Shown here: positions 7,132-34,761 of the stretch, in pieces
Layout: each line of letters opens with the position of its first letter
Numbering within the stretch: the stretch's first letter is position 1
The notes under the pieces: generated by a model
The model's input: the letters and a program-made list of their open reading frames with translations, nothing else
Told to the model about the DNA's origin: nothing
Databases searched by the model: none
Origin: Lactobacillus equicursoris DSM 19284 = JCM 14600 = CIP 110162
Lineage (GTDB): Bacteria > Bacillota > Bacilli > Lactobacillales > Lactobacillaceae
Assembly (NCBI RefSeq): GCF_001434815.1
Contig: NZ_AZDU01000021.1
Location: 1-36,955 of the forward strand
Reading direction: 5' to 3'
DNA: 36,955 nucleotides
Position numbers and translations under genes: made by a program

Positions 7132-8406
7132 CTAAAACTCCCGGGGTGCTTCTAAGGCATTTGGCACCAAGACCTCTGCTCTGAATTCTCCCCCGCCGCT
7201 GGCCAGCGCGGTTTTCGGACTAAAAGTTAACCGCAGACGGCCATGGTAAGGCTCAAGAAAGGATTTGACCTTGCCTAAGCCAATCCCTACCCGGCCGTTT
7301 GCTACAACATTATCTCTTTCTGACCCGATCTTGACCTTCTTCTCTGTTTGGTTAAGCACGGTCAAAAGCATGGTTTTCCCAGAAAACTTCAGCACCGCCT
7401 TAACCTGGTGGTCCGTGGCCAGTGAGGCTGCCTGGCAGGCATTTTTCAAAAGATTGCCGGTAATGATGCACAGATCCAGCTGCCGCAAGGCTAAGTTGCC
7501 AGGAATTACCCCAGTCCAGCTGATTTCAACCTGCGGGTACCGGGCAGCCAAGTCGCCAAGCACGGCATTGATTCCGTTGTTGCCAGTATCAATCAATTGC
7601 CGGGTCATCTGGCTGTTTCCAACCAGATCGTCGATATAGGCGGTCAAGTCCTGGTACTGGCCCGCATGGGCCAGCCCCTGCAGGCTGACCAGGTGCTGGC
7701 GGGCATCATGACGGAACTTCTTGGTTTCTTTCTCCCGGGCCAAAAGCGATTCATAGTAGTTTTCCTCAGCCTGGAGCAGCTTCTCTTGTTCACTCATCGC
7801 GCTTTTTAATTCCCAAACCCGGAATTGGTCTTGCAAAAGAGCCGTGTCCAGCCAGACGGCGGCCCCAGCTAAAGTGGCCTCCAGCAAGGGCCGGCCCAAG
7901 AAGGCCTGAAAGCGGCCGGCCGCCAAACCCGTTGCCCCCAAAGCCAGTATCTCCAGTAAGATCAGCAGCCACTTGGCTTTTCCTGGCCAGTTGCCAAAAA
8001 GATTTTTGACCTTAGGCACCAAAAGCAGGTAAACGAAAGTCAAGGCTACAGCAGCTTCAAAAACAAGATCAGCCGCGACCACTTCTTGACCAACCAGCTG
8101 CTTTAGACTCAGATCCAGCAGGCTTAAAACTGCATAGCTGCCCAGCTGGCGGAGGTCTTTTTCCTTTAAAGGCCCCAGCAAAGTTCGCCCCAGAGCAAGC
8201 AGGGCGTAGATCAAAGCTTCATTTAAAGGGCCCAGCAAAGGACCAGCTAGGCCGCAGATTAACAGACCAAAAACATAAATCCCCAGCAGCCAGACCGGCT
8301 TGATTTTCTCCTTAAAAAGATAAGTGAAAGCCAGGTAAAATTTGCTGAACTGCAGCAGGATGAAAGCCGCGTTCAAGAACGTCACGGCGTCGATTGACAA
8401 ATTCAT
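7132..8406 (-). CDS. sensor histidine kinase, GHKL/AgrC-like (HPK10-type)
   Basis: Membrane sensor of 424 aa, partner of the LytTR regulator just upstream. About six hydrophobic segments occupy residues 1-200, a short coiled-coil follows (about 203-230), then the phospho-acceptor His233 in FRHDARQHL. The ATP-binding domain has the N-box NLLKNACQAA (Asn322) and a G-box GRVGIGLG (about 367-374). This layout is that of peptide-pheromone sensors, but no pheromone gene is seen. The start is the ATG at 8406, with GGAGG 4 nt upstream. Only 13 bp separate it from the regulator gene. It is the last gene of the operon. Confidence 0.88.
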   Translation of the reverse strand: MNLSIDAVTFLNAAFILLQFSKFYLAFTYLFKEKIKPVWLLGIYVFGLLICGLAGPLLGPLNEALIYALLALGRTLLGPLKEKDLRQLGSYAVLSLLDLSLKQLVGQEVVAADLVFEAAVALTFVYLLLVPKVKNLFGNWPGKAKWLLILLEILALGATGLAAGRFQAFLGRPLLEATLAGAAVWLDTALLQDQFRVWELKSAMSEQEKLLQAEENYYESLLAREKETKKFRHDARQHLVSLQGLAHAGQYQDLTAYIDDLVGNSQMTRQLIDTGNNGINAVLGDLAARYPQVEISWTGVIPGNLALRQLDLCIITGNLLKNACQAASLATDHQVKAVLKFSGKTMLLTVLNQTEKKVKIGSERDNVVANGRVGIGLGKVKSFLEPYHGRLRLTFSPKTALASGGGEFRAEVLVPNALEAPREF

Positions 8407-8419
8407 GTTACCTCCAAAA

Positions 8420-9139
8420 TCACAGCGGCTGGGCATAAAAGCGCAAGTAGTCAAGCCAGGCAGCTTCTACAGCCTTGACCTGGCGGCGAGGGAGCAGAAT
8501 CGGCTGCTTTAGGCCAGCAAGGTAGAGCTGGTTATGCTTTAGATCGATGATATGCTGGTAAGCCACGATGTATTGCCGGCTCACCCGGCCAAACAGGGTA
8601 CTGTCAAGCTGATCTTCCCAGTACTTTAAGGGCTCAGGACTGATTACTTTTTTATCAGTCGTATAAATACAGCTCTGGTCCCCCAGACTTTCCAATAGAC
8701 GGATTTCATTTAAAGGCAGAGCGGTCATTGCCTTATCTGGCAGAGGAACTGCCAGCATTTGCTTGGCCAGGATTTCCTGGTAGGCTGCCTGCAAAACCGA
8801 GCGGATATCCTCCTTTTTCCAGGGCTTGAGCAGGTAGCGGAAGGCCCGGACCTCAAAGGCGGAAGGCATATAGCGGTCATAAGCAGTTAAAAAGACCAGC
8901 AAATCACTCCGCTTGTCACGGCGCAGGCGGCGGGCCGTCTCCATGCCGCTTGTGCCCGGCATTTCAATATCCAGGAAGATCAAGTTGTAGCTTTTTCCGG
9001 CTTCAAGCAGGTCATCCCCACTAGCGTAGCAATCGACATGAGCGGTGTTTAGCTCCATAACCAGCATCTTCCGCAAGTTTGCCCGTTCTTTTGCTTCATC
9101 GTCACAAACCGCAATCTGCAGGCCAAATTTTTCCTTCAT
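8420..9139 (-). CDS. LytTR-family response regulator
   Basis: 239 aa. The receiver domain (about residues 7-125) has the acidic pair in VCDDE, phospho-acceptor Asp57 (FLDIEMPG) and Lys105 (LLKPW). The C-terminal half (about 140-235) is a LytTR DNA-binding domain, with IYTTDKKVI and FGRVSRQYIVAYQHI typical. Such regulators bind pairs of short direct repeats about two helical turns apart. A pair of this kind lies at 11148-11179 in front of the operon, which suggests autoregulation. The gene follows the broken permease gene by 7 bp. Confidence 0.92.
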   Translation of the reverse strand: MKEKFGLQIAVCDDEAKERANLRKMLVMELNTAHVDCYASGDDLLEAGKSYNLIFLDIEMPGTSGMETARRLRRDKRSDLLVFLTAYDRYMPSAFEVRAFRYLLKPWKKEDIRSVLQAAYQEILAKQMLAVPLPDKAMTALPLNEIRLLESLGDQSCIYTTDKKVISPEPLKYWEDQLDSTLFGRVSRQYIVAYQHIIDLKHNQLYLAGLKQPILLPRRQVKAVEAAWLDYLRFYAQPL

Positions 9140-9146
9140 CCCTCAA

Positions 9147-10450
9147 CTATCCCTTCCGGCCAATCATCCGTTTAAATTCGACTTTTAGCTTTTGACTTAA
9201 AAGCTTTCCATATATCAAAGTATACAGCAGGATAAAGGAAAACTGGCAAAGAAGCAGGCTAGCCGGGCTTTCAGCATAAAGGACAAGCAAGACAGCCGCA
9301 GCCAGGAAACAAACAACTGCCGCCAAAGCAGCTGCCCCTGCAGCCGGTCGTAAAATTATTCTCCATTTGTATCCACTGGTAAACAAGGCGAAAAGCTTGG
9401 CCCGGTTGAGCTGAGCCCAGGCACTGGCCTGATAGTTCAAAACACTGACTAGTAAAAGCAGAAGCAAAACGCAGGTCAGCAGCTGCCACAAGCAGCTTTT
9501 TAAGTAGAGCTTGGCCAGGCTCAGCTTGCTTTGGGCGATCAGCTTCAAGCGGAATGGCTCTGGCGAGTAAGCCTTGGCCAGGCCGCGCCGCTTTAAGGCA
9601 GGAATCAGCTTAGCTGACCGGATAAAGAAAAGGTTGCCGGTTGACAAGGCTGAGTATAAAAAATCATGCATGTCATAAACCTGGCTGGGCCGTTTGCTGT
9701 AGATGAGCAAGGGGTGGCGGCAAAGCTGAAAATCTTGCGTTTCATTTAAAGCGGCCAGCTTTTTCCGGCTAGTCAATAAGTGCATCCCTTTCGGCACGGT
9801 TTGCCGCTTCGCAGTATTAAGCGGCAGGATTCTGCGCAAAAAATTTTGGCATTCTGCCGATAGATCAGTCAAGGCAACTTCCTTTAGGTCCTGCTGACTG
9901 ACACCGGCCAGCTTCAAGGCTTGATCGTTGACGAAAACAATGTGGTCATAGCCGCCTAATTCAGCTGGCGACGTTTGCATCTGGTCATCCATGATCAAGG
10001 ACAAAACTGCGTTGTCCTCCCCTTCCTCATCCTTGATCAAAGCTAGCTCAGCTGGATAATAAGCCTGCCGGTCCAAACAAACGCCCGTCATCATCAAAAC
10101 TGACGGCCGCTGGAGCTGACTGCCATTTCTCCTTTGACTGGTAATTTTCATAGGAACTTTTAGCCAGCAAGGCCGCTTGCGGCAGGGACCAGGCTAAAAG
10201 CAGCAAGGCTCCAAACGAAGAGGCAGGCAAAATTGTCCCGCCAAATTTCCAACCTTCTGATTCCAGCCAGCAGGCGAATGGCATCTTTGCGATAGCCAAG
10301 CTGCAAAGGCAAAAGCAGGCTCGTAGTATATAAAAGCAAGCTGCAGATCAAGGGCAGCCGATCTACTGCATCGCGGCCAGGACCAAGAGAATATAAGAAA
10401 ATAAGGGCTAGGATCAAGCTAGAGGCAGCAATGCTTATTTTATTACGCAT
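9147..10450 (-). pseudogene. frameshifted ABC transporter permease (bacteriocin-associated type)
   Basis: Three overlapping pieces in three different frames together look like one membrane protein. The first (10450-10160, MRNKISIAASSLILALIFLY) has two or three membrane helices. The second (within 10299-10048) continues the third helix into LLAKSSYENYQSKEKWQ. The third (within 10151-9147) carries an extracytoplasmic region and three C-terminal helices. Both frame changes go the same way, as if one base were gained (or two lost) each time. The start at 10450 follows GGGGGA within the ATPase 3' end (TGA CC ATG). Pairing with the small ATPase suggests the lactococcin-972-type exporter/immunity permease family (DUF1430); that identification is from context and memory. 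At about 434 codons it is also short for that family. Confidence 0.7.
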
Positions 10451-10452
10451 GG

Positions 10453-11079
10453 TCATTCCCCCAAACAAATCCGCGTATCGCATTTTTTCGCTAGGGCATC
10501 ATCGTGAGTAGCGATGAAGACAAGCGCGCCTGCCTGTGCCTGTTTTAAAAGCAAGTCGGTAACCAGCTGCCGGTTGGCCGCGTCCAAAGAAGCGGTCGGC
10601 TCATCTGCGTAGATTACCCGTCCTCCTTTATATAAAAGGCGGGCCAGGCCCAGACGTCGCTTTTCCCCGCCAGACAGCACGGCTGCTTTTTCATGAGCTT
10701 GCGCTAAACCAAGCATTTTTAAGTAATGCAAGGCTTGATCCTGACTCTTTTTTGCCTTAGTCAGCGAGACATTGTACAGCAGGCTTTCTCCATCGATGAT
10801 TCCAGCATCTTGATAGAGAAAGGCTGCCTTTTCCCGCCAAAATTTCTCCCTTTTTCTTGCTGGCCAGCTGTTAGCATTCTCACCATTGATCAAAATTTTT
10901 CCCTTGCTTGGTTGATCCAGCAAGCCGAGCAAGTTGAGCAGAGTGGTTTTGCCAGCACCGGACTGGCCAATCAAGGCAACTGTTTGCCCGCCATTGGCTT
11001 GAAAGGATAAATTTTGAAAAAGCAATTTACCTCCTACTTGCGCCGCAAGCTGATCGGCAGAAACGATTATTCCTTGCAT
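10453..11079 (-). CDS. ABC transporter ATP-binding protein (bacteriocin export/immunity type)
   Basis: Single ATPase domain of 208 aa. Walker A is GQSGAGKTT (residues 38-46), Q-loop YQDAG, signature LSGGEKRRLGLAR, Walker [13 protein letters not shown], switch histidine in FIATHDD. The compact size and close coupling to a permease resemble the putative bacteriocin-export ATPases of the lactococcin 972 group and MacB-like exporters. The ATG at 11079 follows AAAGGAGGAAGG. It is the first gene of the ATPase-permease-LytTR-kinase operon. Since the permease gene is frameshifted, this ATPase may have no working partner. Confidence 0.88.
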   Translation of the reverse strand: MQGIIVSADQLAAQVGGKLLFQNLSFQANGGQTVALIGQSGAGKTTLLNLLGLLDQPSKGKILINGENANSWPARKREKFWREKAAFLYQDAGIIDGESLLYNVSLTKAKKSQDQALHYLKMLGLAQAHEKAAVLSGGEKRRLGLARLLYKGGRVIYADEPTASLDAANRQLVTDLLLKQAQAGALVFIATHDDALAKKCDTRICLGE

Positions 11080-11217: not shown

Positions 11218-12369
11218 TCATTCTTCCCAGCGGATTTCCCCGCTCAAGTAGGTCTTCTCCAAGGTCAGGTCACTGTTCAAGACCAAGAAGTCAGCTGGCA
11301 AGCCGGGTGCGATTTGCCCGCACTGGTCCAGCAAGTGGTGGCTGCGAGCAGCATTGTAGGTCGCCATTTGGATAGCCTCTTGCTTAGTTACTAGACCCCA
11401 GTCAACCAGGTTCTTAACCCCGTTCTTGAGTTCCAAGACGCTGCCAGCCAGGTTGTCGCCATCCTTCAGCCGGGCCATCCCGTCTTTGACGTATACGGGC
11501 AGTTCACCCAGCATGTAGTCGCCATCCGGCATCATGCCGGCTTCCATGCAGTCGGTGATTAAGACGATGTGTTCAACCCCCTTGGCCGCTATCAAGGCCT
11601 TGATGGCCGGAATGGCTACGTGGTGACCATCGGCAATCAGTTCATTGTCCATGTTGTCCAAGGCCATGGCCGCATTAGCAATGTTTGGCTGGTTGTGGGA
11701 AAAGTCCGGCATCCCGTTGAAGGTGTGGGTAAAAATCTCCGCCCCCGCTTGCGCCGCTGCCTTGGCTTCATCGTAGCTAGCACTGGAGTGGCCTAGGGCG
11801 ATCATTACCCCGCGACTGGCTGCATAGCGGATGAAGTCGGTTGTCCCTGGCCGCTCTGGTGCGAGGGCAATCTTTTTCAGCATCCCTTTAGAGGCCTCCA
11901 GCCAGCGGTCCAGGTCTTCACGGTTTGGGTCCAGCATGTACTTAGGGTTTTCGGCCCCGGCATGTTCTTCCGTAAAGAAGGGGCCTTCAAAGTGGATCCC
12001 CTGGATTCTCGCGCCAGCTTCTTGCCCCTCATGGTCAGCAAACATCTGGCAGACCGCCGTCAATTGCTCGCTTGAAGCCGTCACCGTCGTTGGCAACCAG
12101 CTGGTCACCCCAGCGCCTAAGAGTGCCTTGGACAATTTATCGATCCCGGCCCAGTCGCTCTTCATCACATCTTCTTTAACTGAGCCATGGATATGGGTGT
12201 CAACGTAGCCTGGCGCTAATTCATAGCCAGTGTAGTCAACGATCTCCCCTTCTGGACGGGCATTTTCGGGGTAATAAGCTCCAAACTTGCCGTCAGTAAT
12301 TTCCAAGTAACCGCCCTCTTCTACGGCCTTCGGCAGGTAGAAGCGATCAGCGTGAACGTAATAATGCAT
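11218..12369 (-). CDS. nagA: N-acetylglucosamine-6-phosphate deacetylase
   Basis: Cytoplasmic amidohydrolase that removes acetate from GlcNAc-6-phosphate, giving glucosamine-6-phosphate for glycolysis or wall synthesis. 383 aa from the ATG at 12369 (MHYYVHADRF; GGAG at 7-nt spacing); the open frame runs 23 codons further back without a ribosome site. Metal and active-site residues are visible: VDTHIHG (His59, His61), HFEGPF (Glu128), LGHSSA (His194), HTFNGM (His215) and catalytic LITDCM (Asp273). It is monocistronic. No nagB or NagR gene is in the window, but a GntR-type operator lies over its promoter. Confidence 0.95.
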   Translation of the reverse strand: MHYYVHADRFYLPKAVEEGGYLEITDGKFGAYYPENARPEGEIVDYTGYELAPGYVDTHIHGSVKEDVMKSDWAGIDKLSKALLGAGVTSWLPTTVTASSEQLTAVCQMFADHEGQEAGARIQGIHFEGPFFTEEHAGAENPKYMLDPNREDLDRWLEASKGMLKKIALAPERPGTTDFIRYAASRGVMIALGHSSASYDEAKAAAQAGAEIFTHTFNGMPDFSHNQPNIANAAMALDNMDNELIADGHHVAIPAIKALIAAKGVEHIVLITDCMEAGMMPDGDYMLGELPVYVKDGMARLKDGDNLAGSVLELKNGVKNLVDWGLVTKQEAIQMATYNAARSHHLLDQCGQIAPGLPADFLVLNSDLTLEKTYLSGEIRWEE

Positions 12370-12402
12370 CTTTTTCTCCAATCTATTTTCCGATTTTCTT
12401 AC

Positions 12403-12438
12403 AATTGGTATTGTCCAATTTTTAGTCTTCTTTGTCAA
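12403..12438 (-). promoter_or_regulatory. nagA promoter with GntR/NagR-type operator
   Basis: The -35 TTGACA (12433-12438), a 17-bp spacer and -10 GACAAT (12410-12415). An 18-bp palindrome, AATTGGTATTGTCCAATT on the plus strand (12403-12420), with 6-bp arms and a 6-bp centre, covers the -10. It resembles the dre/NagR site type (TGGTATAGACCA). Repression relieved by an amino-sugar phosphate is the likely mode, inferred from the family. Confidence 0.7.
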
Positions 12439-12522: not shown

Positions 12523-12528
12523 TATAAT
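12523..12528 (+). promoter_or_regulatory. -10 box of the GH31-like gene
   Basis: A perfect TATAAT lies 35 bp upstream of the start. No clear -35, and no MalR- or cre-like site, is seen near it. Confidence 0.5.
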
Positions 12529-12563: not shown

Positions 12564-15554
12564 ATGAACGACTTGCAAACCTCTAAGCACCAACTTGGTT
12601 CTTTAGTTGGCGTCAATAAAAAAGATAATTACTTTGAACTTCATTATGCAACCGGCGAAGTGGCCCGGGTCTACCTGATTAGTGACGGGATTTTCCGCTA
12701 CTGGCTAGACCCCAGCCAAGCCTTTGCCGAAACTAGCGACATGCTGGTCACGCCCCAGCCTGATCCCGCCTATTTCCAAAAGGCCCATGCCCATGCCACT
12801 AGCGACATGTTCATCATCACCGTTGGCAGCTACAAGCTGATCTTCCAGCAAAAGACCGCCTTGTTCAGCATTTTTGACGAAGCAGTACACCGGACCCGGG
12901 TTAGCCAGGTTGCTCCTCTATTAATCAGCGGCAAGCACACTACGGAAATTATTAAACAAAGTCCGAATGAATACTACTATGGCGGCGGGGTCCAAAACGG
13001 CCACTTCAGCCATAAGGGTGAAAAGGTCCTAATTAAGACTGACGGGATCACTGGCCAAGATGGGGTCTTGGCTGCCGTACCTTTCTTTTGGACTAATTCT
13101 GGTTTTGGCGAATTCCGCAATACTCTGGCTCCTGGCAGCTATGACTTTGGCAGCCAAAATGAGCAAGTAGCAATCTTAAAGCACCGCAACCCGGTCTTTG
13201 ACAACTTCTATATAATAGGAAGTTCTCCGCAAGAAATTTTGCAAAGATACTACTCTTTGACGGGTCCTGCCCTGATGCCGCCACGCTTTGCCCTGTCCTT
13301 TGGCCACCTGGGCAACTTCTTGGATCCAGCTTGGAAGAAAGCCAAGGCCAAGAGTCACACGGCCATCCGCTTTGAAGACAATTCCTACTATAGTAAAGTA
13401 GCTGATGGCAAGCATCAGGCCAGCCTGAACGGGGAACAGGACTACCAGTTTTCAGCCCGGGCCATGCTGGACCGGTATAAGCGCTTTGACTTCCCGCTTT
13501 CCTGGATGATTCCTAACTATGAAAGTGAGAAAAATACTGATCCGCACGTTTTCGCCTCCTTTGCCGAATATGCTAAAAAGCTCGGCATCCACCCTGGCTT
13601 TTGGAGCGAAAATAGCCAAGACCTGCCAGATCATGCAGAATTAGCTGCCATCGATGACCCAAGCAGCGATTTGCCAGCAGTAAATGCTGCTTTAAGCAAG
13701 AAGAATCCGAAAGCCAAGCCAATCTCCTTAGTTAGAGATGGCCTGCGCCCCTTTCAACAAAGCAGCGCTTTAGCCTTTGGCGACGTTGGCGGGGACTGGT
13801 CCAGCATCAAGACCCAAATCGCCACCTTCCTAGGTGCCGGCTTATCCGGCATCCCCTTCATTGGGGCCAGCAGCGGCGGCAAGTTGGGTCAAGAAAATGC
13901 CCAAGTAGCAGTCCGAGACCTGGAATGGAAGACTTTCACTCCCCTCTTCTTTGTCACCGACGACCAAAGCCCACTGAGCAAGACCCCGTTTGCCTTCAAC
14001 AGCAAGATTTCCCGGGTAATGAAGGCCTACCTGCAGTTAAGAAACGAATTTCTTCCCTATATATATGCTCTCAGCCGCCAGGCTCAAGATGGTCTGCCAC
14101 TAGTGCGGCCGCTCATGATGGAATTCCCGCATGAGCAGATTGGCTATGGCCGGGACTTCGCTGACGAGTTTATTCTGGGTGACCAGATCTTGGTTGCACC
14201 GATCACCAATGGCAAGTCTGACAGCCAGGGCAATAGCGTCCGCGACCGGATCTACCTGCCAGACAAGCAAACCGTATGGATCGACCTCTTTACCGGTGAT
14301 CGCTTCATGGGTGGCCGAGTCTACAATCGCCTGAAGTACCCCCTCTGGCATCTGCCAGTCTTCGTCCGGGGCGGCTCCATTTTAGATTTAGGCCAAAGAC
14401 ACTTTGTCCTTTACCCATATGGCGACAGCTCCTACACCAGCTATGATGATAATGACCAAGTCGACTACGAGCACAACTTTGCCAAGACCGTTATCAGGAG
14501 CCGGGTTGACGACAGCCGCCTGCGAGTAATTATTGAGCCAACTGAAGGCTACTATCCGAACTTGACCATTAAGCAGGAAACCTTCCTTTATATCTACTGC
14601 GACCAGCATCCAGAAGACCTGGCCCTCCGGGTTGGCAAAGACGACGTTATCCAGCTGGAAGAGTATGGCAGTCCGGAAACCCTGGACCATGCTAAAGAAG
14701 GTTTTTACTACGATCCTCACTTTAGCTGGCCAAAGGGCTTTAGCGACCTAAACGACCAAAGCCGGCCAGCCTTGGTGATCAAGCTGCAAGAGCGGGACAT
14801 CAAGCAGGTCAAATTAGAATTAGTCGTTAACAACTTCTGCTTTGCCGGCGAGCAGCTAGTACACCAAATTACTGATGCTGCCTTGAAATTGCCAAGCAAG
14901 GTCGAAGTCGACCGAAGCAAGATCAGTGCTCACTCTTTAACTGTTAAGTGGGCCCAAAAGACGCCAAAGGTCCAGCTGGAATTAAATGGTCTGCTCTACA
15001 CCGGTATCAGCGGCAATATCTTCACCTTTACCGACTTAGCTGCCGACCAGGTTTACCAGCTGCGCCTGCGCTATGAGTCAGGCTACAAGGTTTCTGAATG
15101 GTCCGACTGGATCAAGGTCAAGACCAAGAAGGACCCTAAGGACTTTATCATCCAGAACTTGAAAGTGACCAGCAATGTCGACAGTGAACCAGGGCACCCA
15201 GCCAAGTACTTGCTGGACCAGCGCCTGGCTACCAGCTGGCAAAGTGCCAAGACTGACGAGCCAATCCAGCTCACTTTCACCTTTAAGGAAAAGACTGAAC
15301 TCAACAAGGTGATCTACGTCCCTGATGCCTTGCAAGCTGAAGGTCGGCCGCTCAAGATCAAGGCGGAAATTTCTACGGATGGCGACAGCTTCGTGCCTTA
15401 CGGTGAAGACTTCAGCTTCAACAGCGATGCCAAGAACAAGGTCATTGGCCTCCGGGGCGTCAGTGCCTGGGCGGTCCGCTTGACCATCTTGGACAAGACC
15501 GGTGATTTTGCCGCGGCTTCCAGCATCGACTTTTACCGGCCACTCGACAAGTAA
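12564..15554 (+). CDS. large GH31-like glycosidase homologue with fn3 and F5/8C modules
   Basis: 996 aa with no signal peptide, so probably cytoplasmic. Residues about 1-235 form the N-terminal beta-sandwich; the GH31 barrel follows (about 237-550). Near 770-860 is a fibronectin-III-like domain (HSLTVKWAQKTPKVQLELNG), and about 862-993 an F5/8C (discoidin) module. A GDV at 406-408 aligns with the acid/base Asp of GH31 (Asp407), and LSGIPFIG and EWKTFTPLFF match family blocks. I cannot find the segment carrying the nucleophile (WxDxNE or KTDVAW type): only about 45 residues lie between GFWSEN (345-350) and GLRPF (393-397). It could be inactive, regulatory or binding-only. RBS AAAGGA precedes the ATG. 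It converges on the mal importer operon, which suggests alpha-glucan use. Confidence 0.8.
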   Translation: MNDLQTSKHQLGSLVGVNKKDNYFELHYATGEVARVYLISDGIFRYWLDPSQAFAETSDMLVTPQPDPAYFQKAHAHATSDMFIITVGSYKLIFQQKTALFSIFDEAVHRTRVSQVAPLLISGKHTTEIIKQSPNEYYYGGGVQNGHFSHKGEKVLIKTDGITGQDGVLAAVPFFWTNSGFGEFRNTLAPGSYDFGSQNEQVAILKHRNPVFDNFYIIGSSPQEILQRYYSLTGPALMPPRFALSFGHLGNFLDPAWKKAKAKSHTAIRFEDNSYYSKVADGKHQASLNGEQDYQFSARAMLDRYKRFDFPLSWMIPNYESEKNTDPHVFASFAEYAKKLGIHPGFWSENSQDLPDHAELAAIDDPSSDLPAVNAALSKKNPKAKPISLVRDGLRPFQQSSALAFGDVGGDWSSIKTQIATFLGAGLSGIPFIGASSGGKLGQENAQVAVRDLEWKTFTPLFFVTDDQSPLSKTPFAFNSKISRVMKAYLQLRNEFLPYIYALSRQAQDGLPLVRPLMMEFPHEQIGYGRDFADEFILGDQILVAPITNGKSDSQGNSVRDRIYLPDKQTVWIDLFTGDRFMGGRVYNRLKYPLWHLPVFVRGGSILDLGQRHFVLYPYGDSSYTSYDDNDQVDYEHNFAKTVIRSRVDDSRLRVIIEPTEGYYPNLTIKQETFLYIYCDQHPEDLALRVGKDDVIQLEEYGSPETLDHAKEGFYYDPHFSWPKGFSDLNDQSRPALVIKLQERDIKQVKLELVVNNFCFAGEQLVHQITDAALKLPSKVEVDRSKISAHSLTVKWAQKTPKVQLELNGLLYTGISGNIFTFTDLAADQVYQLRLRYESGYKVSEWSDWIKVKTKKDPKDFIIQNLKVTSNVDSEPGHPAKYLLDQRLATSWQSAKTDEPIQLTFTFKEKTELNKVIYVPDALQAEGRPLKIKAEISTDGDSFVPYGEDFSFNSDAKNKVIGLRGVSAWAVRLTILDKTGDFAAASSIDFYRPLDK

Positions 15555-15649: not shown

Positions 15650-16507
15650 TTAACCCTTGTCAGCACCTGCGGTAATCCCACTAACGTAGAACTTCTGCAT
15701 AATGATGAAGAGGACTGTGATTGGGATCGCGATAATGACACAACCAGCCACGAATTGGGCAAAGAAGGTTGTCGCACTCCCTTTTGAAGAAGAAAGCATG
15801 TTGTACAGACCATAAGCGATAGTGTAGGTCTTTGGATTACCTGAAGTTGAAAGGATAATCCCGGAGAAGATAAAGTCTACCCATGGTGCCATGAAAGTGG
15901 TCAAAGCCGTGTAAACGATCATTGGCTTTGACAGCGGCAAACCGATCTTAGTGAAGACTTGCCACTTGGTAGCACCGTCAAGTTCAGCAGCTTCATCCAA
16001 GGACCGCGGAATCGTGTCGAAGAAACCTTTGGCAACATAGAAGCCAAGGCCGGCACCGCCGACGTAAACCAGGATTAAACCGCCGAGGTTCAGCATGTTT
16101 AGCCCCTTCAAGATGTAGTAAAGAGCGATCATGGACATAAAGCCTGGGAACATCCCCAAAACCAAAGCGATTTGCAGGAATGGCTTCCGCATCTTGAAGC
16201 GTAAACGTGAGAGCACATAGGCTACCGAAATTTGGATGAAAGTAGAGAGTGTAGCGGAGATGATGGCCACGATTAAGGTGTTAATGATCCAGTGCAGGTA
16301 AGGGAATTGGGAGTTGGTAAAGATTCCGATATAGTTCTGCAGGGTCCATTTTTCAGGTAAGAAAGTAGAGATAAAGCCAGTGTCATTGTATGAGAAGCTG
16401 GCAAAAACGATCCAAACGATCGGGATTAACCAAACGATAGCCAATACCGTCAGCAGGAAATATCTGAAGAAAAGGGATACTTTTCTCTGTCTTGAGTAAG
16501 ATTTCAA
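15650..16507 (-). CDS. malG: maltodextrin ABC transporter permease MalG
   Basis: Inner-membrane subunit of the maltose/maltodextrin importer, 285 aa with six hydrophobic segments. The EAA loop is DEAAELDGATKWQVFTKIGL, which contacts the ATPase. The start is a TTG at 16507 (16505-16507): AAGGAGGGATAAAATTG puts GGAGG 7 nt upstream, and no ATG or GTG fits as well. The ribosome site lies within the last codons of malF, and two bases separate the malF stop from the TTG. It is the last gene of malP-pgmB-msmK-malE-malF-malG and is followed by the shared terminator. Confidence 0.95.
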   Translation of the reverse strand: MKSYSRQRKVSLFFRYFLLTVLAIVWLIPIVWIVFASFSYNDTGFISTFLPEKWTLQNYIGIFTNSQFPYLHWIINTLIVAIISATLSTFIQISVAYVLSRLRFKMRKPFLQIALVLGMFPGFMSMIALYYILKGLNMLNLGGLILVYVGGAGLGFYVAKGFFDTIPRSLDEAAELDGATKWQVFTKIGLPLSKPMIVYTALTTFMAPWVDFIFSGIILSTSGNPKTYTIAYGLYNMLSSSKGSATTFFAQFVAGCVIIAIPITVLFIIMQKFYVSGITAGADKG

Positions 16508-16509
16508 TT

Positions 16510-17868
16510 TTATCCCTCCTTAAATGATGTCGTGTGACGGTAGGCAATTAAGGAAATCGTCGCACTCAAGATGAAGATCAAGATACCTAAAACGGCGGAA
16601 GCGTTGTAACGCTGTTGTTGACCGAAGGTCAAGTTGTAGAGCCAGTTGACCAAAAGGTCGGTTGACCCGGCGCCGTTGTAGTTGTTGTTCATAGGCTTAC
16701 CACCCGTCAGCAGGTAGATGACGTTGAAGTTGTTGATATTACCGATGAATTGTTGAATCAGTGATGGTCCCATTACAAAGAGAATTTGTGGGAAGGTAAT
16801 ATTGTGGAAGATTTGGAAGGCGTTAGCCCCGTCCATCCGAGCAGCTTCAATTTGATCTTGTGGCAAGTTCTGAATGATCGCCATTGATACCAGCATTGAA
16901 ACAGGAATACCAATCCACATGTTAACGATGATAACCGTTAACCGGGCTACCCAAGGGGCAGCTTCGTTGTCGATAAAGTGAATTGGGCTTGAAATCCAGC
17001 CCCAGTTTTGGAGCAAGGTGTTCAAAGGACCTTGAGCATCCAAGAACTGAGCCATCAGCAGCAGGGAAACGAATTGTGGAACAGCGTAAGCGACGATGAA
17101 GATCGTCCGCCATACCTTCCGGTGCTTGATGCCCTTTGATTCGATCAAGAGGGCTAACAAAACACCGCCCAAGAAAGTCGTTACCGTCGCAGCTACCGCC
17201 CAAACCAGGGTCCAGCCAAGGACTGGGAAGAAAGTCCCGGCCAGGTCCCCGGTCAGCACGCTCCCAAAGGCCTGGAAGCCAGTCCAGGAGAAGCCGATTG
17301 GGTGTTGCCGGTCATAGTTGGTAAAGGCCATGGAAATCATGAAGATCGTTGGCAAGACAGTGAAGAGGATGATCCCCAGCAAAGGAATGAACATCAAAGT
17401 GGCGTGAAGCCGGGAGTCAAAGAGACTAGCGATTTCTTCCTTGTTGGTGGCGATGTGCTTGCCATCGCGCTTCTTGATATAGTTGGCCCGAGTTGACCGC
17501 AAATTGATAATATACAACCAGATAAAGCCAATAACTAGGAAAATGGCCATGATCCCAAAGAGCAGGATCAATACTGAGTTGTCTGGCTGCTTGGTAATGT
17601 AGACGCCTTGCGCCTTGTCGAAGACGACTTTCTTAGTCTTAATCGTCCCTAGGTTGCTCAGCATGCTGAGCGCGCTAGCCCCGCTGAAGATAAACCAGCA
17701 GATAAAGATGATTTCTGATGCCAGCAAGCTGATCCCCTTGGCCCATTGCTTATTTTTTAAAGCACTGACACCCATGAAGAAGAAGGATAGCTTGTCAGCT
17801 GCATCCCCCTTTGACCACACTTCTTTATAGGTGGCAGCTGGAGGAATGTGTCCTTTTCTCTTAAACAT
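16510..17868 (-). CDS. malF: maltodextrin ABC transporter permease MalF
   Basis: Inner-membrane partner of MalG, 452 aa. The N-terminal 145 residues hold two extra helices (about 45-65 and 100-122) before the conserved permease core, as in MalF/GanP-type proteins. The EAA loop is QIEAARMDGANAFQIFHNIT. The ATG at 17868 follows AAGGAG at 11 nt. An out-of-frame ATG 4 nt after the same site opens a four-codon frame, which could reduce MalF relative to MalE. Confidence 0.95.
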   Translation of the reverse strand: MFKRKGHIPPAATYKEVWSKGDAADKLSFFFMGVSALKNKQWAKGISLLASEIIFICWFIFSGASALSMLSNLGTIKTKKVVFDKAQGVYITKQPDNSVLILLFGIMAIFLVIGFIWLYIINLRSTRANYIKKRDGKHIATNKEEIASLFDSRLHATLMFIPLLGIILFTVLPTIFMISMAFTNYDRQHPIGFSWTGFQAFGSVLTGDLAGTFFPVLGWTLVWAVAATVTTFLGGVLLALLIESKGIKHRKVWRTIFIVAYAVPQFVSLLLMAQFLDAQGPLNTLLQNWGWISSPIHFIDNEAAPWVARLTVIIVNMWIGIPVSMLVSMAIIQNLPQDQIEAARMDGANAFQIFHNITFPQILFVMGPSLIQQFIGNINNFNVIYLLTGGKPMNNNYNGAGSTDLLVNWLYNLTFGQQQRYNASAVLGILIFILSATISLIAYRHTTSFKEG

Positions 17869-17915
17869 TTTTCATTACTCTCCTTCTCAAGCTTAATTAA
17901 AGTTGTTGCGCTTAA

Positions 17916-19136
17916 TTACTTTTGAGAAATCTTCTTTGCGAACTTAGCAAGTTGTGCCTTGTATTGACTTGGCTTGATCTTGCCATCGTATGCGCCACTT
18001 ACCAGTGGAGCAGCACCATCCCAGAAGGTTGCCATTTGTGGCAGCTTTGGTTGCAATACAGAGTTGCCTGACTTAGCCATTTCAATAACGGCTACAGCAA
18101 CTGGGTCGCTCTTAACATCACTTGATGCTACGGCACTCTTCAAAACTGGGATTTGACCAGCCTTGTCGTGAGCGATCAATTGTGACTTCTTGTTGGTAAT
18201 GTAAGCTGCAAGTTCTGATGAAGCCTTAGCGTTTGAAGTGTGGGAGTTTACGGCAAATCCTTCGATACCCAAGAAGGCTTCAAGTTGAACCTTCTTGCCG
18301 CCAACAGTGACAGTTGGGTACTTAGCAACAGCAAAGTTCTTGCCCAAGATCTTCTTGATGTTGGCTGCGTTCCAAGGACCATCCATGATGGCAGCAGCGT
18401 TGCCCTTCTTCAATTGGTTCAAAGCGTTAGAGGTTTGCATAACGTTCTTGTTGCTCTTTTGCTTTGCGATCCAAGTCAAGGCGTTAACACCATTTTGGCT
18501 GTTGAAAGTTGAGCCCTTCAGGTCTTCACCGTTTTCGCCGTAGAGAGTAGTACCAGCTGAGAAGAAGACTGGCCACATCGTGTAGGCGTTAGTAAAGTCA
18601 GTTGCCAAGACACCCTTCTTAGTCAAAGTGTCCCAGTCCTTAACGTCGCTGGCTGAAAGCTTTGACTTGTTGTAGTAAATGGTGTCTGCTTGTTGAGCGT
18701 ATGGGTAGGCGTAAATCTTGCCCTTCCAGGTAACGCCCTTAGCAGCTTGGGATACGTAGTTCTTCTTGATGTTGGAAGTGTCTGATGGTGAAAGTGGGTT
18801 AATGTAACCAGCGTTTGCCATTTGACCTAATTGGTCGTTTGGAACTTCGAAAACATCGGCAGCCTTTGAGGCGTCCTTACCAACGTCAGTCTTAGCGTTA
18901 GCAGAACCGTTAGGACTTTGGGTAACCTTAACGGTAATGTTAGGGTGCTTCTTGTGGAAGTCCTTAACAATGCTCTTGTAGTATGATACCTGTTCGGTGT
19001 CAACCCACAAAGTCAAGGAAGCCTTCTTTTCGCTTGATGATGATGAACTACTGTTGCTGCTGTTTGAGCAAGCTGACAAACTTAAAGCAGCCAATACTGC
19101 TGCACTGCCCAAGGCAGCCTTCTTAAAGAAACTCAT
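17916..19136 (-). CDS. malE: maltodextrin-binding lipoprotein MalE
   Basis: Extracellular solute-binding lipoprotein of family 1, 406 aa. The signal peptide ends in LSLSAC (Cys23), followed by a long serine linker. The mature part (LTLWVDTEQVSYYKSIVKDF, then KAADVFEVPNDQLGQMANAGY) is typical of MalE/CycB. It captures maltose and longer maltodextrins for MalFG. RBS TAGGAGG precedes the ATG. The 82-bp gap before it holds an 18-bp palindrome but no clear promoter. Confidence 0.95.
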   Translation of the reverse strand: MSFFKKAALGSAAVLAALSLSACSNSSNSSSSSSSEKKASLTLWVDTEQVSYYKSIVKDFHKKHPNITVKVTQSPNGSANAKTDVGKDASKAADVFEVPNDQLGQMANAGYINPLSPSDTSNIKKNYVSQAAKGVTWKGKIYAYPYAQQADTIYYNKSKLSASDVKDWDTLTKKGVLATDFTNAYTMWPVFFSAGTTLYGENGEDLKGSTFNSQNGVNALTWIAKQKSNKNVMQTSNALNQLKKGNAAAIMDGPWNAANIKKILGKNFAVAKYPTVTVGGKKVQLEAFLGIEGFAVNSHTSNAKASSELAAYITNKKSQLIAHDKAGQIPVLKSAVASSDVKSDPVAVAVIEMAKSGNSVLQPKLPQMATFWDGAAPLVSGAYDGKIKPSQYKAQLAKFAKKISQK

Positions 19137-19147
19137 TTTTTCCTCCT

Positions 19148-19165
19148 AAAACAAACATTTGTTTT
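19148..19165. repeat. 18-bp palindrome in the malE leader
   Basis: AAAACAAATGTTTGTTTT (minus strand) has 8-bp arms around a 2-bp centre and lies just upstream of the malE ribosome site. A role as operator or mRNA stem is possible but unproven. Confidence 0.45.
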
Positions 19166-19218
19166 ATTTTTTAAATCATCTTGCAGCAACGCACTACAAG
19201 TTGATTAACTTAGTTAAA

Positions 19219-20325
19219 TTAATTGGTAAGCGTCACTTGGGTGTCCTTGTCGAAGAAGTGCGCGTTGTTCAAGTTGAAGCCAGCTTGAACCTTATCGCCT
19301 GGCTTGTGGAAGTCACGCGCGTTCACAACGCCGACAAATTCTGTCCCATCAGCCTTCATGTACAGCTGACTGGTTGCACCCAAAAGTTCTGAAACGACAA
19401 CTTCCGCGTTAACCGTGGCTTCTGGCCAGGTTTCCAGGAAGGCTTGTTCCATGTGGATGTCTTCTGGACGCAGGCCCATCACCACATCCTTGCCATTATA
19501 GCCCTTGGATTCCAGGATCTTGGCCCGGCCTTCAGGCACCTTCAGCTTGATGCCCTTGCCGTCATCAATGTAGCCATCCTTGTAGTTGACATTGAAGAAG
19601 TTCATTTGCGGTGAACCGATGAAGCCGGCAACGAATTGATTGGCTGGCTTGTTGTAGACTTCCTTAGGAGAGCCAATTTGCTGGATGCGACCAGCATTCA
19701 TAACAACAATCCGGTCAGCCAAGGTCATCGCTTCGGTTTGGTCGTGGGTAACGTAGATCGTGGTCGTCTTCAGGTTTTGGTGAAGCTTGGCGATCTCGGC
19801 CCGCATGGAAACACGCAGCTTAGCGTCAAGGTTTGACAATGGTTCGTCCATCAAGAAGATTGGAGCATCCCGGACGATGGCCCGCCCCAAGGCAACACGC
19901 TGGCGCTGCCCACCGGACAGGTCAGCTGGCCGCCGCTCCAAGAGGTGAGCCAGGCCTAAGACTTCAGCCGCGTTCTTGACGCGCTTGTCGATTTCCGCCT
20001 TGTCATAGTGGCGAAGCTTCAAGCTGAAGGCCATGTTGTCGTAGACGCTCATGTGTGGATACAAGGCGTAGTTCTGGAAGACCATGGCAATGTGACGGTC
20101 ACGCGGAGCTACGTCGTTCATGACCTTGCCGCCGATTTCCAAAGTACCCTTGGAAATATCTTCTAGACCCGCAATCATCCGCAAAGTCGTGGACTTACCA
20201 CAGCCAGATGGACCGACAAAGACGATAAATTCGTGGTCATCAATGTGCAGGTCAAAATCAGAGACTGAGTAGTCATCAGCATTTGGATACTTTTTGTAGA
20301 TGTGATTTAAGTTGATTTTTACCAT
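19219..20325 (-). CDS. msmK: multi-sugar/maltodextrin transporter ATPase
   Basis: Cytoplasmic ATPase of 368 aa that energises MalEFG. Walker A is GPSGCGKST, Q-loop VFQNYALYPH, signature LSGGQRQRVALGR, Walker B IFLMDEPLSNLD, switch His in YVTHDQTEAMTLADR. A C-terminal OB-type regulatory domain (from about residue 235; VVMGLRPEDIHME is typical) marks the MalK/MsmK subfamily, which may be controlled by EIIA or HPr and shared between importers. AGGTAAGGG precedes the ATG. It starts 10 bp after pgmB. Confidence 0.95.
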   Translation of the reverse strand: MVKINLNHIYKKYPNADDYSVSDFDLHIDDHEFIVFVGPSGCGKSTTLRMIAGLEDISKGTLEIGGKVMNDVAPRDRHIAMVFQNYALYPHMSVYDNMAFSLKLRHYDKAEIDKRVKNAAEVLGLAHLLERRPADLSGGQRQRVALGRAIVRDAPIFLMDEPLSNLDAKLRVSMRAEIAKLHQNLKTTTIYVTHDQTEAMTLADRIVVMNAGRIQQIGSPKEVYNKPANQFVAGFIGSPQMNFFNVNYKDGYIDDGKGIKLKVPEGRAKILESKGYNGKDVVMGLRPEDIHMEQAFLETWPEATVNAEVVVSELLGATSQLYMKADGTEFVGVVNARDFHKPGDKVQAGFNLNNAHFFDKDTQVTLTN

Positions 20326-20335
20326 TTTCCCTTAC

Positions 20336-21004
20336 CTAATTCCCTGCTTTTTTAAAAACTCTTTCAATTTCGGCTAAATCTAAAGCACTGGTTGAGCCCA
20401 CGATGTAGTCAGCTCCTTTTAAGACGACTGGGTCGCCGATGCCAACGGCAAACTGACCAGCAGCCTTGATGGACTTGACGCCAGCAGGAGCATCTTCAAA
20501 GGAGATTACTTCGTTCTTCTCAAGACCCAAGAGTTCTTGAGCCCGGATGTAAATTTCTGGATCCGGCTTGCCATGCTTTAAAGTAGCTGGGTCAACTCGG
20601 GCATCAAAGAGATCTTCCAGCTCCAGTTGGTGCAAGATCAATGGAGCGTTTTTAGATGCAGAAGCTAGAGCCAGCTTTAAGCCTTGAGCCTTGGCTTCAT
20701 GCAAGAGGTCCGCCATCTTAGGCAAGATGTCCGCCTTGGTCATCTTTTGGACAGCCTTGATATAAGCATCGTTTTTCTTAGCAGCTAAGGCTTCTTTTTC
20801 TTCTTGGGTATAGTCATTTTCTTTGTGGCCATATTCCAAGATGATTTCTAATGAGTCCATCCGGGACAAGCCGCGAAGCTTGTCGCCGAAGGACTCTGGC
20901 AGGTCAATGCCGATTTCCTTAGCCAGGTCTTGCCAAGCCTTCAGGTGGTAGACTGCTGAGTCAGTGATAACGCCGTCTAGGTCAAAAATTAATCCTTTAA
21001 GCAT
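20336..21004 (-). CDS. pgmB: beta-phosphoglucomutase
   Basis: HAD-superfamily enzyme, 222 aa. It converts the beta-glucose 1-phosphate released by maltose phosphorylase into glucose 6-phosphate. The motif FDLDGVITDSAVYH supplies the nucleophile Asp8 and the acid/base Asp10; LALASASKNAP (motif II) and ISFEDAPAGVKSI (motif IV) follow. The ATG at 21004 lies inside the end of malP (16-bp overlap), with AGAAGG 9 nt upstream. Such overlap implies coupled translation with its metabolic partner. An upstream open stretch to 21043 belongs to malP. Confidence 0.95.
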   Translation of the reverse strand: MLKGLIFDLDGVITDSAVYHLKAWQDLAKEIGIDLPESFGDKLRGLSRMDSLEIILEYGHKENDYTQEEKEALAAKKNDAYIKAVQKMTKADILPKMADLLHEAKAQGLKLALASASKNAPLILHQLELEDLFDARVDPATLKHGKPDPEIYIRAQELLGLEKNEVISFEDAPAGVKSIKAAGQFAVGIGDPVVLKGADYIVGSTSALDLAEIERVFKKAGN

Positions 21005-23262
21005 TGAGTTTGACCTTCTTTCAAAGTTACTTCTTGGTCCCAAACCTTAACAGTTAAGTCATTCCCAGAAACCAAAGTCAGCTTAGCGCCGTCCTTGTCA
21101 ACGGCAACGGCCAAGATGCGGCCTTGGTAGTTGATCTTGAAGCTGTAGCCGGTCCACTTCTTTGGCAGGAATGGAGCAAAGCTTACGCCTTTTTCGTTAT
21201 ACCGCATGCCGGCGAAGCCTTGAACGATTGACAGCCAGCTGCCGCTCATGGAAGTGATGTGAAGACCATCAACAGTGTCGTTGTTGTAGTTGTCCAGGTC
21301 AAGACGCGCCGTCCGTTCGTAAAGCTCAACTGCCTTGTCTTGCTTGCCAAGTTCTGCAGCCAAGATGGAGTGGATGGATGGGCTCAAGGAACTTTCATGA
21401 ACCGTCATTGGTTCGTAGAAGTCGAAGTTCTTTTCCTTCTGTTCCTTGGTGTAGCGGTCATTCAAGAAGTAGATCCCTTGCAAAACATCGGCTTGCTTGA
21501 TGAATGGTGACCGCAGGATCTTGTCCCATGACCAGTGCTGGTTCAGTGGCAATTGGTCAGCTGGGATGGTGTCCTTGCTCCGGATGTCCTTGTCCAAGAA
21601 GGTGTCGTGTTGAACGAAGATGCCTAGGTCTTTGTCTTCTGGCAGGTACATCTTGTCTACAATGTCTTGCCACTTAGCCAATTCTTCATCAGTTACGTTT
21701 AGCCGCTTCTTGGCAGCTTCCGTAGCCAGTGGCCAGCGTTCCAAGGTGTAACTGAGCAACCATCTAGCCATGGTGTTGGTGAACCAGTTGTTGTTGACGT
21801 TGTTTTCGTATTCGTTTGGTCCAGTGACGCCGTGGATCATGTATTGACCCTTGCGCTTGGAGAAGTGTACCCGGTCAGCCCAGAAGCGCGCCGTCCCTAC
21901 CAAAACGTCCATGCCTTCGTCTTTGACATAAGAGTCATCGCCAGTGTAGCGGGTGTATTGGTAGATGGCGAATGGGATATCCGCGTTACGGTGGATTTCT
22001 TCAAAAGTGATTTCCCATTCGTTGTGGCATTCAATCCCGTTGAAGGTAACCATTGGGAACAAAGCCCCTTTTAGCCCTTGCATCCGGGCGTTGTGGTAAG
22101 CACCTGGGAGTTGTTCGTGCCGGTATTCCAAAAGTGATCTGGTAACTTCCTTTGGCGCTACTGCCAAGTACATTGGCACGATGAAGGCTTCGGTGTCCCA
22201 GTAAGTAGCACCGCCGTACTTTTCACCAGTGAAGCCCTTTGGCCCAATGTTCAGTCGAGGGTCCTGACCGTAGTAGGTCATGAACAGTTGCAAGATGTTG
22301 AAGCGGATCCCTTGTTGGGCAGCAGCGTCGCCTTCGATGGTAACGTCACACTTTTCCCAGCGCTTGGCCCAAACGGCTTCGTGATCGGCCAAGTTGTCAG
22401 CGTAGGACTTTTCTTGCAGCTTAGCCATCAATTCGTCAGCCTTTTCAGCTTGATCGCTGTCAGCGACGTCACGGCTGTTAACTACGATAACGTCCTTTTC
22501 CAGTTCCCAGCTTTCGCCAGTTGCCAAGTGCTTTTCAAAAGTTTCGTCAACCAGGCCGCTCTTAGTAGCAACCTTGCCAGAAATCACTTGACCATCTTCA
22601 CGAACGGATTCCTTTAAAAGAACCGTAAATTGTGGAGTGCCGAAGTTGTTTGGCTTGGTCTTGAGCTGGATGCTGCGGCTTGATTCATCTTCGCCCAAAG
22701 CATCCCAGAAGCCTTCTTCGTAGTTGCTGTCTTCATTAAAGACGTTCCCATTCAAGCGGCTGGTTACTTGCAGATCAGCTTCGCCGCTTAACACGGTTGC
22801 CTTAACCTTGATCAGGGCTGCTTCTTTAATAACGACGCTCAAGAAGCGTTCAAATTCAAACTTCACACGGCAATCTTGCCCTTCGTAAATGAAGCTTCTG
22901 GTAAGCAGGCCTTGGTGCATATCCAGGCTGAGTTCAAAGTCGCTAACCTGGTCAGTAGCTAAGTCAAGCCGGTGACCGTTGATCAAGATTGGCAGGTCAA
23001 TGAAGCTTGGGGCGTTGATGGTCTTGCCAAAGTAGTCTGGGTAACCGTTCTTCCACCAGCCGACCTTGGTCTTGTCTGGGAACCAAACGCCAGCGTAGTA
23101 AGTACCTTTAAGGCTGTCGCCGCTGTAGCCTTCTTCGAAGTTGCCTCTCAGGCCCATGTATTCGTTACCTAAGGAAGTCATGCTTTCTTGAAGTCGCTTG
23201 TCTTCTTTTGAAAAAGTATGACTGGTCAACTTCCAAGGATCGATTTCAAAAATTCTCTTCAT
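20989..23262 (-). CDS. malP: maltose phosphorylase (GH65)
   Basis: Cytoplasmic enzyme that splits maltose with phosphate into glucose and beta-glucose 1-phosphate. 757 aa, the normal length. The catalytic acid should be Glu484 in GVTGPNEYENN; GGATYWDTEAF and NGIECHNEWEITFEEIHRN are other family blocks. The alternative GH65 enzymes (trehalose or kojibiose phosphorylase) are less likely because maltose genes surround it. It opens the malP-pgmB-msmK-malEFG operon. Its promoter carries a MalR-like operator and a cre-like site. Confidence 0.95.
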   Translation of the reverse strand: MKRIFEIDPWKLTSHTFSKEDKRLQESMTSLGNEYMGLRGNFEEGYSGDSLKGTYYAGVWFPDKTKVGWWKNGYPDYFGKTINAPSFIDLPILINGHRLDLATDQVSDFELSLDMHQGLLTRSFIYEGQDCRVKFEFERFLSVVIKEAALIKVKATVLSGEADLQVTSRLNGNVFNEDSNYEEGFWDALGEDESSRSIQLKTKPNNFGTPQFTVLLKESVREDGQVISGKVATKSGLVDETFEKHLATGESWELEKDVIVVNSRDVADSDQAEKADELMAKLQEKSYADNLADHEAVWAKRWEKCDVTIEGDAAAQQGIRFNILQLFMTYYGQDPRLNIGPKGFTGEKYGGATYWDTEAFIVPMYLAVAPKEVTRSLLEYRHEQLPGAYHNARMQGLKGALFPMVTFNGIECHNEWEITFEEIHRNADIPFAIYQYTRYTGDDSYVKDEGMDVLVGTARFWADRVHFSKRKGQYMIHGVTGPNEYENNVNNNWFTNTMARWLLSYTLERWPLATEAAKKRLNVTDEELAKWQDIVDKMYLPEDKDLGIFVQHDTFLDKDIRSKDTIPADQLPLNQHWSWDKILRSPFIKQADVLQGIYFLNDRYTKEQKEKNFDFYEPMTVHESSLSPSIHSILAAELGKQDKAVELYERTARLDLDNYNNDTVDGLHITSMSGSWLSIVQGFAGMRYNEKGVSFAPFLPKKWTGYSFKINYQGRILAVAVDKDGAKLTLVSGNDLTVKVWDQEVTLKEGQTQCLKD

Positions 23263-23296
23263 GATTCTTTTTCCCTCGCTCGTTCAATCTGGTTTA

Positions 23297-23351
23297 ATTA
23301 TCTATGATACTGCAATCGCTAACAAGATTGTTTTAAATGTTACCGATAACA
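23297..23351 (-). promoter_or_regulatory. malP promoter with MalR-like operator and cre-like site
   Basis: The -35 TTGTTA (23320-23325), a 17-bp spacer and -10 GATAAT (23297-23302). A 14-bp palindrome-like site TGTTACCGATAACA (23338-23351) ends 13 bp upstream of the -35. TGCAATCGCTAACA (23311-23324), a cre-like site, overlaps the -35. The two centres are 27 bp apart. The first is proposed as a MalR site, the second as a CcpA site; both assignments are inferred. Confidence 0.7.
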
Positions 23352-23355
23352 TAAT

Positions 23356-25059: not shown

Positions 25060-25109
25060 CTTCATTCCTCACTTTTTCTGATTAAAAGTATCTCTATTTT
25101 TGTTTTTTC

Positions 25110-26771: not shown

Positions 26772-26792
26772 AATTCGTTTCCTCCGCTATTT

Positions 26793-26847: not shown

Positions 26848-26850
26848 AGC

Positions 26851-26886: not shown

Positions 26887-26892
26887 CACTAG

Positions 26893-34736: not shown

Positions 34737-34761
34737 ATAAATTAGAAAGGGGTTGATGATC

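Follow-up and report, generated by a model that had tools for sequence, protein, structure and literature searches.

A GH31-like gene opposite nagA in Lactobacillus equicursoris, a candidate pseudo-glycosidase of the genus

The GH31-like gene and its features

We analyzed a stretch of 36,955 nucleotides from Lactobacillus equicursoris DSM 19284 (NCBI RefSeq assembly GCF_001434815.1, contig NZ_AZDU01000021.1, positions 1 to 36,955 of the forward strand; hereafter the window) and concentrated on one gene, which encodes a protein related to glycoside hydrolase family 31 (GH31). Its open reading frame (ORF) at 12564-15554 on the forward strand was confirmed and gives a product of 996 amino acids. 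An earlier note, made from the DNA sequence alone, had suggested that this protein lacks the strand bearing the catalytic nucleophile and may be a non-catalytic relative of GH31 enzymes. The features of the locus are listed below.

12564..15554, forward strand: GH31-like gene, putative pseudoenzyme (996 amino acids)
12666..13145, forward strand: galactose-mutarotase-like N-domain, residues 35-194 (Pfam PF13802)
13269..14093, forward strand: TIM-barrel part, residues about 236-510 (Pfam PF01055 and structure comparison)
13641..13655, forward strand: predicted strand LAAI (residues 360-363) and D364, putative counterparts of the nucleophile strand and Asp, with the preceding helix deleted (model and alignment)
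13782..13784, forward strand: D407 in the acid/base column, Asp in 31/52 orthologues (alignment)
13863..13880, forward strand: GASSGG (residues 434-439), replacing the xSDMDG-type motif of intact relatives (alignment)
14091..14384, forward strand: GH31 C-terminal domain, residues 510-607 (PF21365)
14916..15119, forward strand: fn3-like domain, residues 785-852 (below the Pfam cut-off; structure superposition)
15168..15509, forward strand: F5/8 type C (F5/8C) domain, residues 869-982 (PF00754, E 1.4e-11, above the Pfam cut-off)
12523..12528, forward strand: -10-like TATAAT of the GH31-like gene (sequence pattern)
12404..12419, no strand assigned: operator-like palindrome ATTGGTATTGTCCAAT between nagA and the GH31-like gene, of a type that also precedes nagB (pattern match)
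11218..12438, reverse strand: nagA, N-acetylglucosamine (GlcNAc)-6-phosphate deacetylase (TIGR00221, 266.6 bits against a cut-off of 225.65)

The listed nagA ORF begins at a TTG (12438); judged by its relatives, the ATG at 12369 is the probable true start.

As a control we used an intact GH31 protein of 1078 amino acids from an uncultured Lactobacillus (CAMJXI010000022.1, locus L173), which carries the motifs KTDVAW, GDQVGG and GSDMDG. Pfam PF01055 covers only the C-terminal part of the barrel in the GH31-like protein (residues 372-503), and since the match is likewise partial in L173 this is no sign of a deletion. The fn3-like domain scores 13.0 bits against a cut-off of 25 and is slightly above the cut-off in L173. 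Thus, of the two accessory modules that had been named in the earlier note, F5/8C passes the Pfam cut-off and fn3 does not, though the superposition described below reaches residues 847-855. The absence of a signal peptide, also noted there, agrees with an N-terminus that has no strongly hydrophobic stretch (maximum of 1.28), as judged by a hydropathy window, which is not a signal-peptide predictor and separates 1.28 poorly from relatives with export-signal-like N-termini (1.76-2.52). Against the NCBIfam MalA profile (NF040948) the protein scores 126.2 bits, below the curated cut-off of 800.

Nearest solved relative and the catalytic region

Among proteins of solved structure, the closest in sequence is the GH31 α-N-acetylgalactosaminidase of Enterococcus faecalis (phmmer E 8e-149). 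The same enzyme ranks first by structure when searched with the AlphaFold model of the GH31-like protein (predicted local distance difference test score (pLDDT) of 90.8, predicted template modeling score of 0.90, 46 sequences), with a Foldseek E of 1.7e-89 and a template modeling score of 0.81 by query length, and VIA-align superimposes the two with a Z of 43.6 and 1.7 Å over 821 residues. Both sequence and fold similarity to characterized members place the protein among the GH31 α-N-acetylgalactosaminidases, which we take to be subfamily GH31_18. There is no support for the maltose, isomaltose and nigerose framing of the earlier note: the close relative is an enzyme that releases N-acetylgalactosamine (GalNAc), and the usual neighbor is nagA rather than a maltose operon. 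The phmmer alignment with the E. faecalis enzyme is broken between query residues 351 and 373. The PDB titles of 7f7q and 7f7r describe substrate complexes of D455A and D455N; from the numbering, D455 would be the nucleophile and would fall in this alignment gap.

In the model, a strand at residues 343-348 is followed by a four-residue strand at 360-363 (LAAI) and a helix at 366-380. The control model of L173 (pLDDT 87.4, with residues 413-421 below 50) has a strand at 372-377, a helix at 396-403 and a strand at 407-410 (VLKT), with the nucleophile D411 directly after. D364 of the GH31-like protein stands directly behind strand 360-363 as D411 does in L173, and is its predicted counterpart by secondary structure and alignment. 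The link between β3 and β4 is 11 residues, compared to 29 in L173, such that helix 396-403 of L173 is gone, and part of the stretch after the strand is also lost (24 residues compared to 33). The claim that the nucleophile strand is lacking is thus contradicted by the model, which keeps strand 360-363 with D364 behind it; for this protein, the structural test that the earlier note had named as a refutation, a model and alignment placing an Asp from residues 350-392 at the nucleophile position, turns out against the claim, as D364 is predicted to occupy that position. The motif observations fared better. GFWSEN lies at 345-350 and is followed by a short segment, although GLRPFQ (393-398) comes after 42 rather than about 45 residues; no WxDxNE or KTDxAW motif occurs in the protein, D407 is kept in the acid/base column, and GASSGG stands where intact relatives read an xSDMDG-type motif.

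We aligned 52 distinct orthologues with 20 rows of intact relatives, leaving out L091 (another GH31) and one extra ORF of L082. The region aligned to residues 340-400 comprises 51-68 residues in 52/52 distinct orthologues, compared to 86-89 in the rows of intact relatives; since all 52 have the same shortening, it is not due to chance. KTDxAW is present in L173 and in 19 of the 20 intact rows (the remaining row reads KTDVVW) and in 0/52 orthologues. The nucleophile column is D in 20/20 intact rows, while the orthologues have D (16), N (16), A (6), T (5), E (3) and others. Similarly, the acid/base column is D in 20/20 intact rows, and D (31), G (8), A (6), N (3), E (2) and others in the orthologues, so that the Asp of the GDxxGG segment, present in the window protein as D407, is not conserved in the clade. 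Both columns hold D in 12 orthologues, one does in 23 and neither in 17. The NRD, W, GYGAGYGQ and SDxDG residues near the active site, invariant in the intact rows, are not found in the GH31-like protein, in which the replacements at positions invariant in the 20 intact rows are N253L, R254D, D255P, W367S, W394L, W404A, D436S, D438G and W468Q. From their place beside the motifs, these residues would line the pocket. One orthologue, L066 (genome G063), represents an intermediate state, with LVIAKTDSPK at the nucleophile strand (aligned to 358-366) and G in the acid/base column.

A total of 43 residues are conserved in the clade and not in the intact relatives; beyond about residue 865 this comparison is with L173 only, most other intact rows being gapped. 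Thirteen lie within the barrel (236-510, 28% of the chain), none of them acidic, and the idea that clade-specific residues avoid the barrel was dropped on this count. The clade-specific acids (E128, E183, E552, E806 and D924) are all outside the barrel, hence there is no sign of a new pair of catalytic acids, and the idea that the barrel has gained a fixed Asp/Glu pair was rejected. Seven of the 43 fall at 103-183 in the N-domain (I103, F104, H109, R112, E128, G164 and E183) and three at 957-964 in the F5/8C domain. These two groups are possible binding surfaces, and the 13 barrel residues would leave room for a remodeled pocket. We conclude from the alignment that canonical hydrolysis would not be the shared function of the clade, and it is unlikely in the window protein itself. 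Thus, the earlier proposal of a non-catalytic relative holds at the level of the clade, in which few members keep both Asp and further invariant positions are replaced, but not by the route of a missing strand.

Distribution, selection and gene neighborhood

Of 74 genus relatives, 67 carry a full-length orthologue, as does the genome of the window itself, with 39-73% identity and no internal stops; a contig end truncates one of the 67, and the fragments G029 and G070 are left out of the 68. The seven genus genomes with no full-length copy are less than 90% complete or more than 5% contaminated. In a family sample of 397 genomes at E 1e-130, the GH31-like gene occurs in its own genus only (25/397 genomes, 1/40 genera). 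A scan of named records gave 51 loci, comprising 49 titled Lactobacillus, one Faecalicatena and one Prevotella with intact motifs. The record titled Faecalicatena absiana (L130, JAEDAG010000001.1) has a Lactobacillus delbrueckii-group locus at 67% identity, with nagA and malG adjoining, and is probably mislabeled or a contaminated assembly.

The whole-gene ratio of nonsynonymous to synonymous substitution rates (dN/dS) is 0.02-0.09 in ten close pairs, with saturated dS in the barrel of one, compared to 0.01-0.06 for nagA in seven pairs. Such low values indicate that the gene is not decaying; as a whole it is under strong purifying selection, similar in strength to that seen for nagA.

Gene order was compared in a set of 42 loci and in the named loci, which overlap in genomes so that their counts are not additive. 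The GH31-like gene lies opposite nagA in 37/42 loci, two of these with two intervening genes. From match coordinates, nagA is within 2.2 kb in 61/68 genomes, the seven others being G005, G009, G013, G027, G034 (contig end), G054 and G056. Leaving out L173, L177 and L178 from the named loci, 48 remain, of which 42 have nagA upstream, 4 have room but no nagA and 2 have no room. At locus L064, the genes between the GH31-like gene and nagA encode a GntR-UTRA regulator and an AgaS-family SIS protein, and nagA is followed by the IIB, IIC, IID and IIA components of a phosphotransferase system of the mannose/sorbose type. This order is repeated in L069 and, as far as IID, in L. johnsonii L166. AgaS is used as a signature of GalNAc use in PMC5583593, where deacetylases clustered with AgaS are named agaA. 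The intact L173 gene faces gntR-agaS-nagA-nagA. In a quick maximum-likelihood tree search, with long rows flagged, the 52 orthologues are split off by a branch with a Shimodaira-Hasegawa-like approximate likelihood ratio test support of 100 and the 20 other intact rows by a branch of 99, with L173 between.

The pattern G[CTG]?TATAAT lies at most 120 bp from the start of the GH31-like gene in 41/42 loci, the exception being a locus whose ORF start was taken further upstream. The palindrome TGGT-N4-ACCA occurs in 27/42 intergenic regions (shuffles gave a mean of 0.025 and a maximum of 1), and a looser form in 28/42 (mean 0.2, maximum 3) and upstream of nagB in 12/13 regions (mean 0.14, maximum 1). 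In the window, the 12404-12419 sequence is one mismatch from the pattern. We take the TGGT-N4-ACCA box to be the NagR site, and its presence before nag genes is that of a NagR-type amino-sugar regulon. NagR is described as a universal amino-sugar regulator of Lactobacillales in PMC3616900.

On the far side of the GH31-like gene in the window, malG lies 95 bases past the stop, with the maltose/maltodextrin cluster beyond, and the GH31-like gene is transcribed towards malG; among the 42 loci, the maltose operon adjoins in 4 only. The window keeps an order common in the genus (usp-TyrPase-NDT-nagA-GH31-like gene-esterase-YibE/F pair-ddl), interrupted by two blocks at 7132-11079 (a histidine kinase/response regulator/ABC set, assigned by eye) and 15650-29625 (the maltose operon). 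At 34753-36093 the window also encodes a CAP-domain protein (PF00188, 24.4 bits against 21.1) that ends in a long stretch of repeats rich in lysine and serine (KKSRKSKK...), which resembles a cationic DNA- or wall-binding tail.

Interpretation and comparison with known systems

Taking together the homology, predicted fold, motif loss, selection, genus-wide presence, linkage to nagA and the intact copy at the same locus, we favor, as the probable explanation, an enzyme of a GalNAc locus turned pseudoenzyme in a node of amino-sugar genes. The ancestor would have been an intracellular GH31 α-N-acetylgalactosaminidase encoded opposite gntR-agaS-nagA, in what was likely a locus for GalNAc use. Its catalytic region would have been dismantled in the progenitor of those Lactobacillus species with the GH31-like gene, by deletion of the β3-β4 helix and replacement of W, D and R residues, leaving both catalytic Asp columns free to vary while the remainder was held under strong selection. 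The product would be a pseudo-glycosidase, probably cytoplasmic, that no longer hydrolyzes GalNAc glycosides and may have taken on a binding role, with an amino sugar, the phosphate of such a sugar or a NagA/NagB-node protein as the most likely target, thereby tuning that node. The GlcNAc-6-phosphate node (NagA/NagB) joins cell-wall recycling to glycolysis. Only tentatively would we go further, to a genus-wide cytoplasmic pseudo-glycosidase, derived from the GalNAc-releasing enzyme of an ancestral GalNAc locus, that, by sensing an amino sugar or the corresponding phosphate, controls the GlcNAc-6-phosphate node.

Several observations weigh against this explanation. The palindrome is found in 0/5 loci in which nagA is not adjacent, and thus the box may serve nagA alone. 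It is hardly enriched genome-wide (82 forward matches compared to 68 in the reversed control, 12 genomes), and 13 of 18 further sites inspected are inside genes, indicating that it is meaningful only beside nag genes. NagA may not be an obligatory partner, since the near-complete genomes G054 and G056 carry the GH31-like gene with no nagA match at E 1e-60, although in G054 the gene is 289 bases from a contig end and a piece may be missing. The AgaS protein of L064 scores 427.6 bits, below the curated cut-off of 529.2. L173 is sister to the 52 orthologues only under a midpoint root, and is one contig of a metagenome-assembled genome; the shared locus is a stronger argument than the tree for its common descent with the GH31-like gene. 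Finally, both catalytic columns are occupied by Asp (D364 and D407) in the window protein and its three closest relatives, all of which have D392 too, and activity may therefore persist in the window protein.

This last point leads to a rival explanation, in which the protein is still a glycosidase that uses the pair D364/D407 in a pocket remodeled to accept a different substrate, which would hold at least for the delbrueckii group (the window protein and L003-L005). The position of D364 behind the retained strand, exactly as D411 in L173, the presence of D364, D392 and D407 in all four members of the group and the strong purifying selection speak for it. However, both Asp are present in only 12/52 orthologues, the window protein also carries the whole series of replacements from N253L to W468Q, and activity would be retained in patches inside a clade that is mostly without the pair; we consider this explanation unlikely. 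A partner role, in which the protein regulates an active GH31 α-N-acetylgalactosaminidase paralogue in the same cell as a dead subunit or decoy, would suit those species of the genus that carry intact paralogues. Yet PF01055 matches nothing else in the window genome, and of the 69 genus genomes with a match to the intact query at E 1e-100, 51 have just one, on which grounds we rejected this role as highly improbable.

The nearby malG and the cluster beyond it might suggest an α-glucosidase of the adjoining maltose operon. Transcription towards malG places the gene outside that operon, and the closest solved relative is an α-N-acetylgalactosaminidase; given mal genes in only 4/42 loci and a MalA score of 126 against 800 bits, we rejected this reading, which has very little chance of being correct. 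The missing catalytic motifs, and a dN/dS of 0.38 for the F5/8C segment alone in one of the ten pairs (dS 0.036), could be signs of a decaying pseudogene or an assembly artifact. Such an origin is refuted, and next to inconceivable, given full-length copies with no internal stop, the low whole-gene dN/dS, the same shortening in 52 distinct proteins and the -10 sequence conserved in 41/42 loci.

Automatic annotation would most likely call the protein an α-glucosidase, based on its GH31 domains. If it is the pseudoenzyme that we favor, predictions of carbohydrate use in the genus include an activity that does not exist, and a component of amino-sugar metabolism has gone unrecognized and awaits assay. 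The gene has been retained in almost all Lactobacillus genomes searched, most often with an amino-sugar gene next to it, and this suggests that it has acquired a different role; together with the intact L173 copy at the corresponding locus it makes a before-and-after pair, in which such a change is directly testable. We found no publication joining GH31_18 and Lactobacillus and, among the titles listed, no paper on inactive GH31 proteins, on GH31 with nagA or on agaS/nagA in Lactobacillus, in searches whose coverage left out most subscription journals.

L173 matches the GH31-like protein in its Pfam domains and their order, fn3 and F5/8C included, and has an N-terminus that is likewise not strongly hydrophobic (1.45). 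The L173 locus resembles that of the GH31-like gene in other species of the genus, opposite nagA and flanked on its other side by an esterase and two YibE/F proteins, and differs in its intact motifs and in having gntR and agaS between the GH31 gene and nagA. The E. faecalis α-N-acetylgalactosaminidase (PDB 6m76, 6m77, 7f7q and 7f7r) shares its fold and domain order with the GH31-like protein up to the fn3-like domain (VIA Z of 43.2-43.6, 1.7-1.9 Å, 821-844 residues, 33-34% identity), the superposition stopping at residue 847-855, short of the F5/8C domain. Unlike that enzyme, the GH31-like protein has neither KTDxAW nor the helix before it, and many invariant residues are replaced. One deposited E. 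faecalis chain is named LPXTG cell-wall anchor protein, whereas the GH31-like protein does not have a strongly hydrophobic N-terminus. The main text of a general review of pseudoenzymes (PMC10211241) contains 0 occurrences of glycosid, glycosyl hydrolase, carbohydrate or chitinase; what it describes for pseudoenzymes in general is a conserved fold that stays under selection after the loss of catalytic motifs, as in the GH31-like protein.

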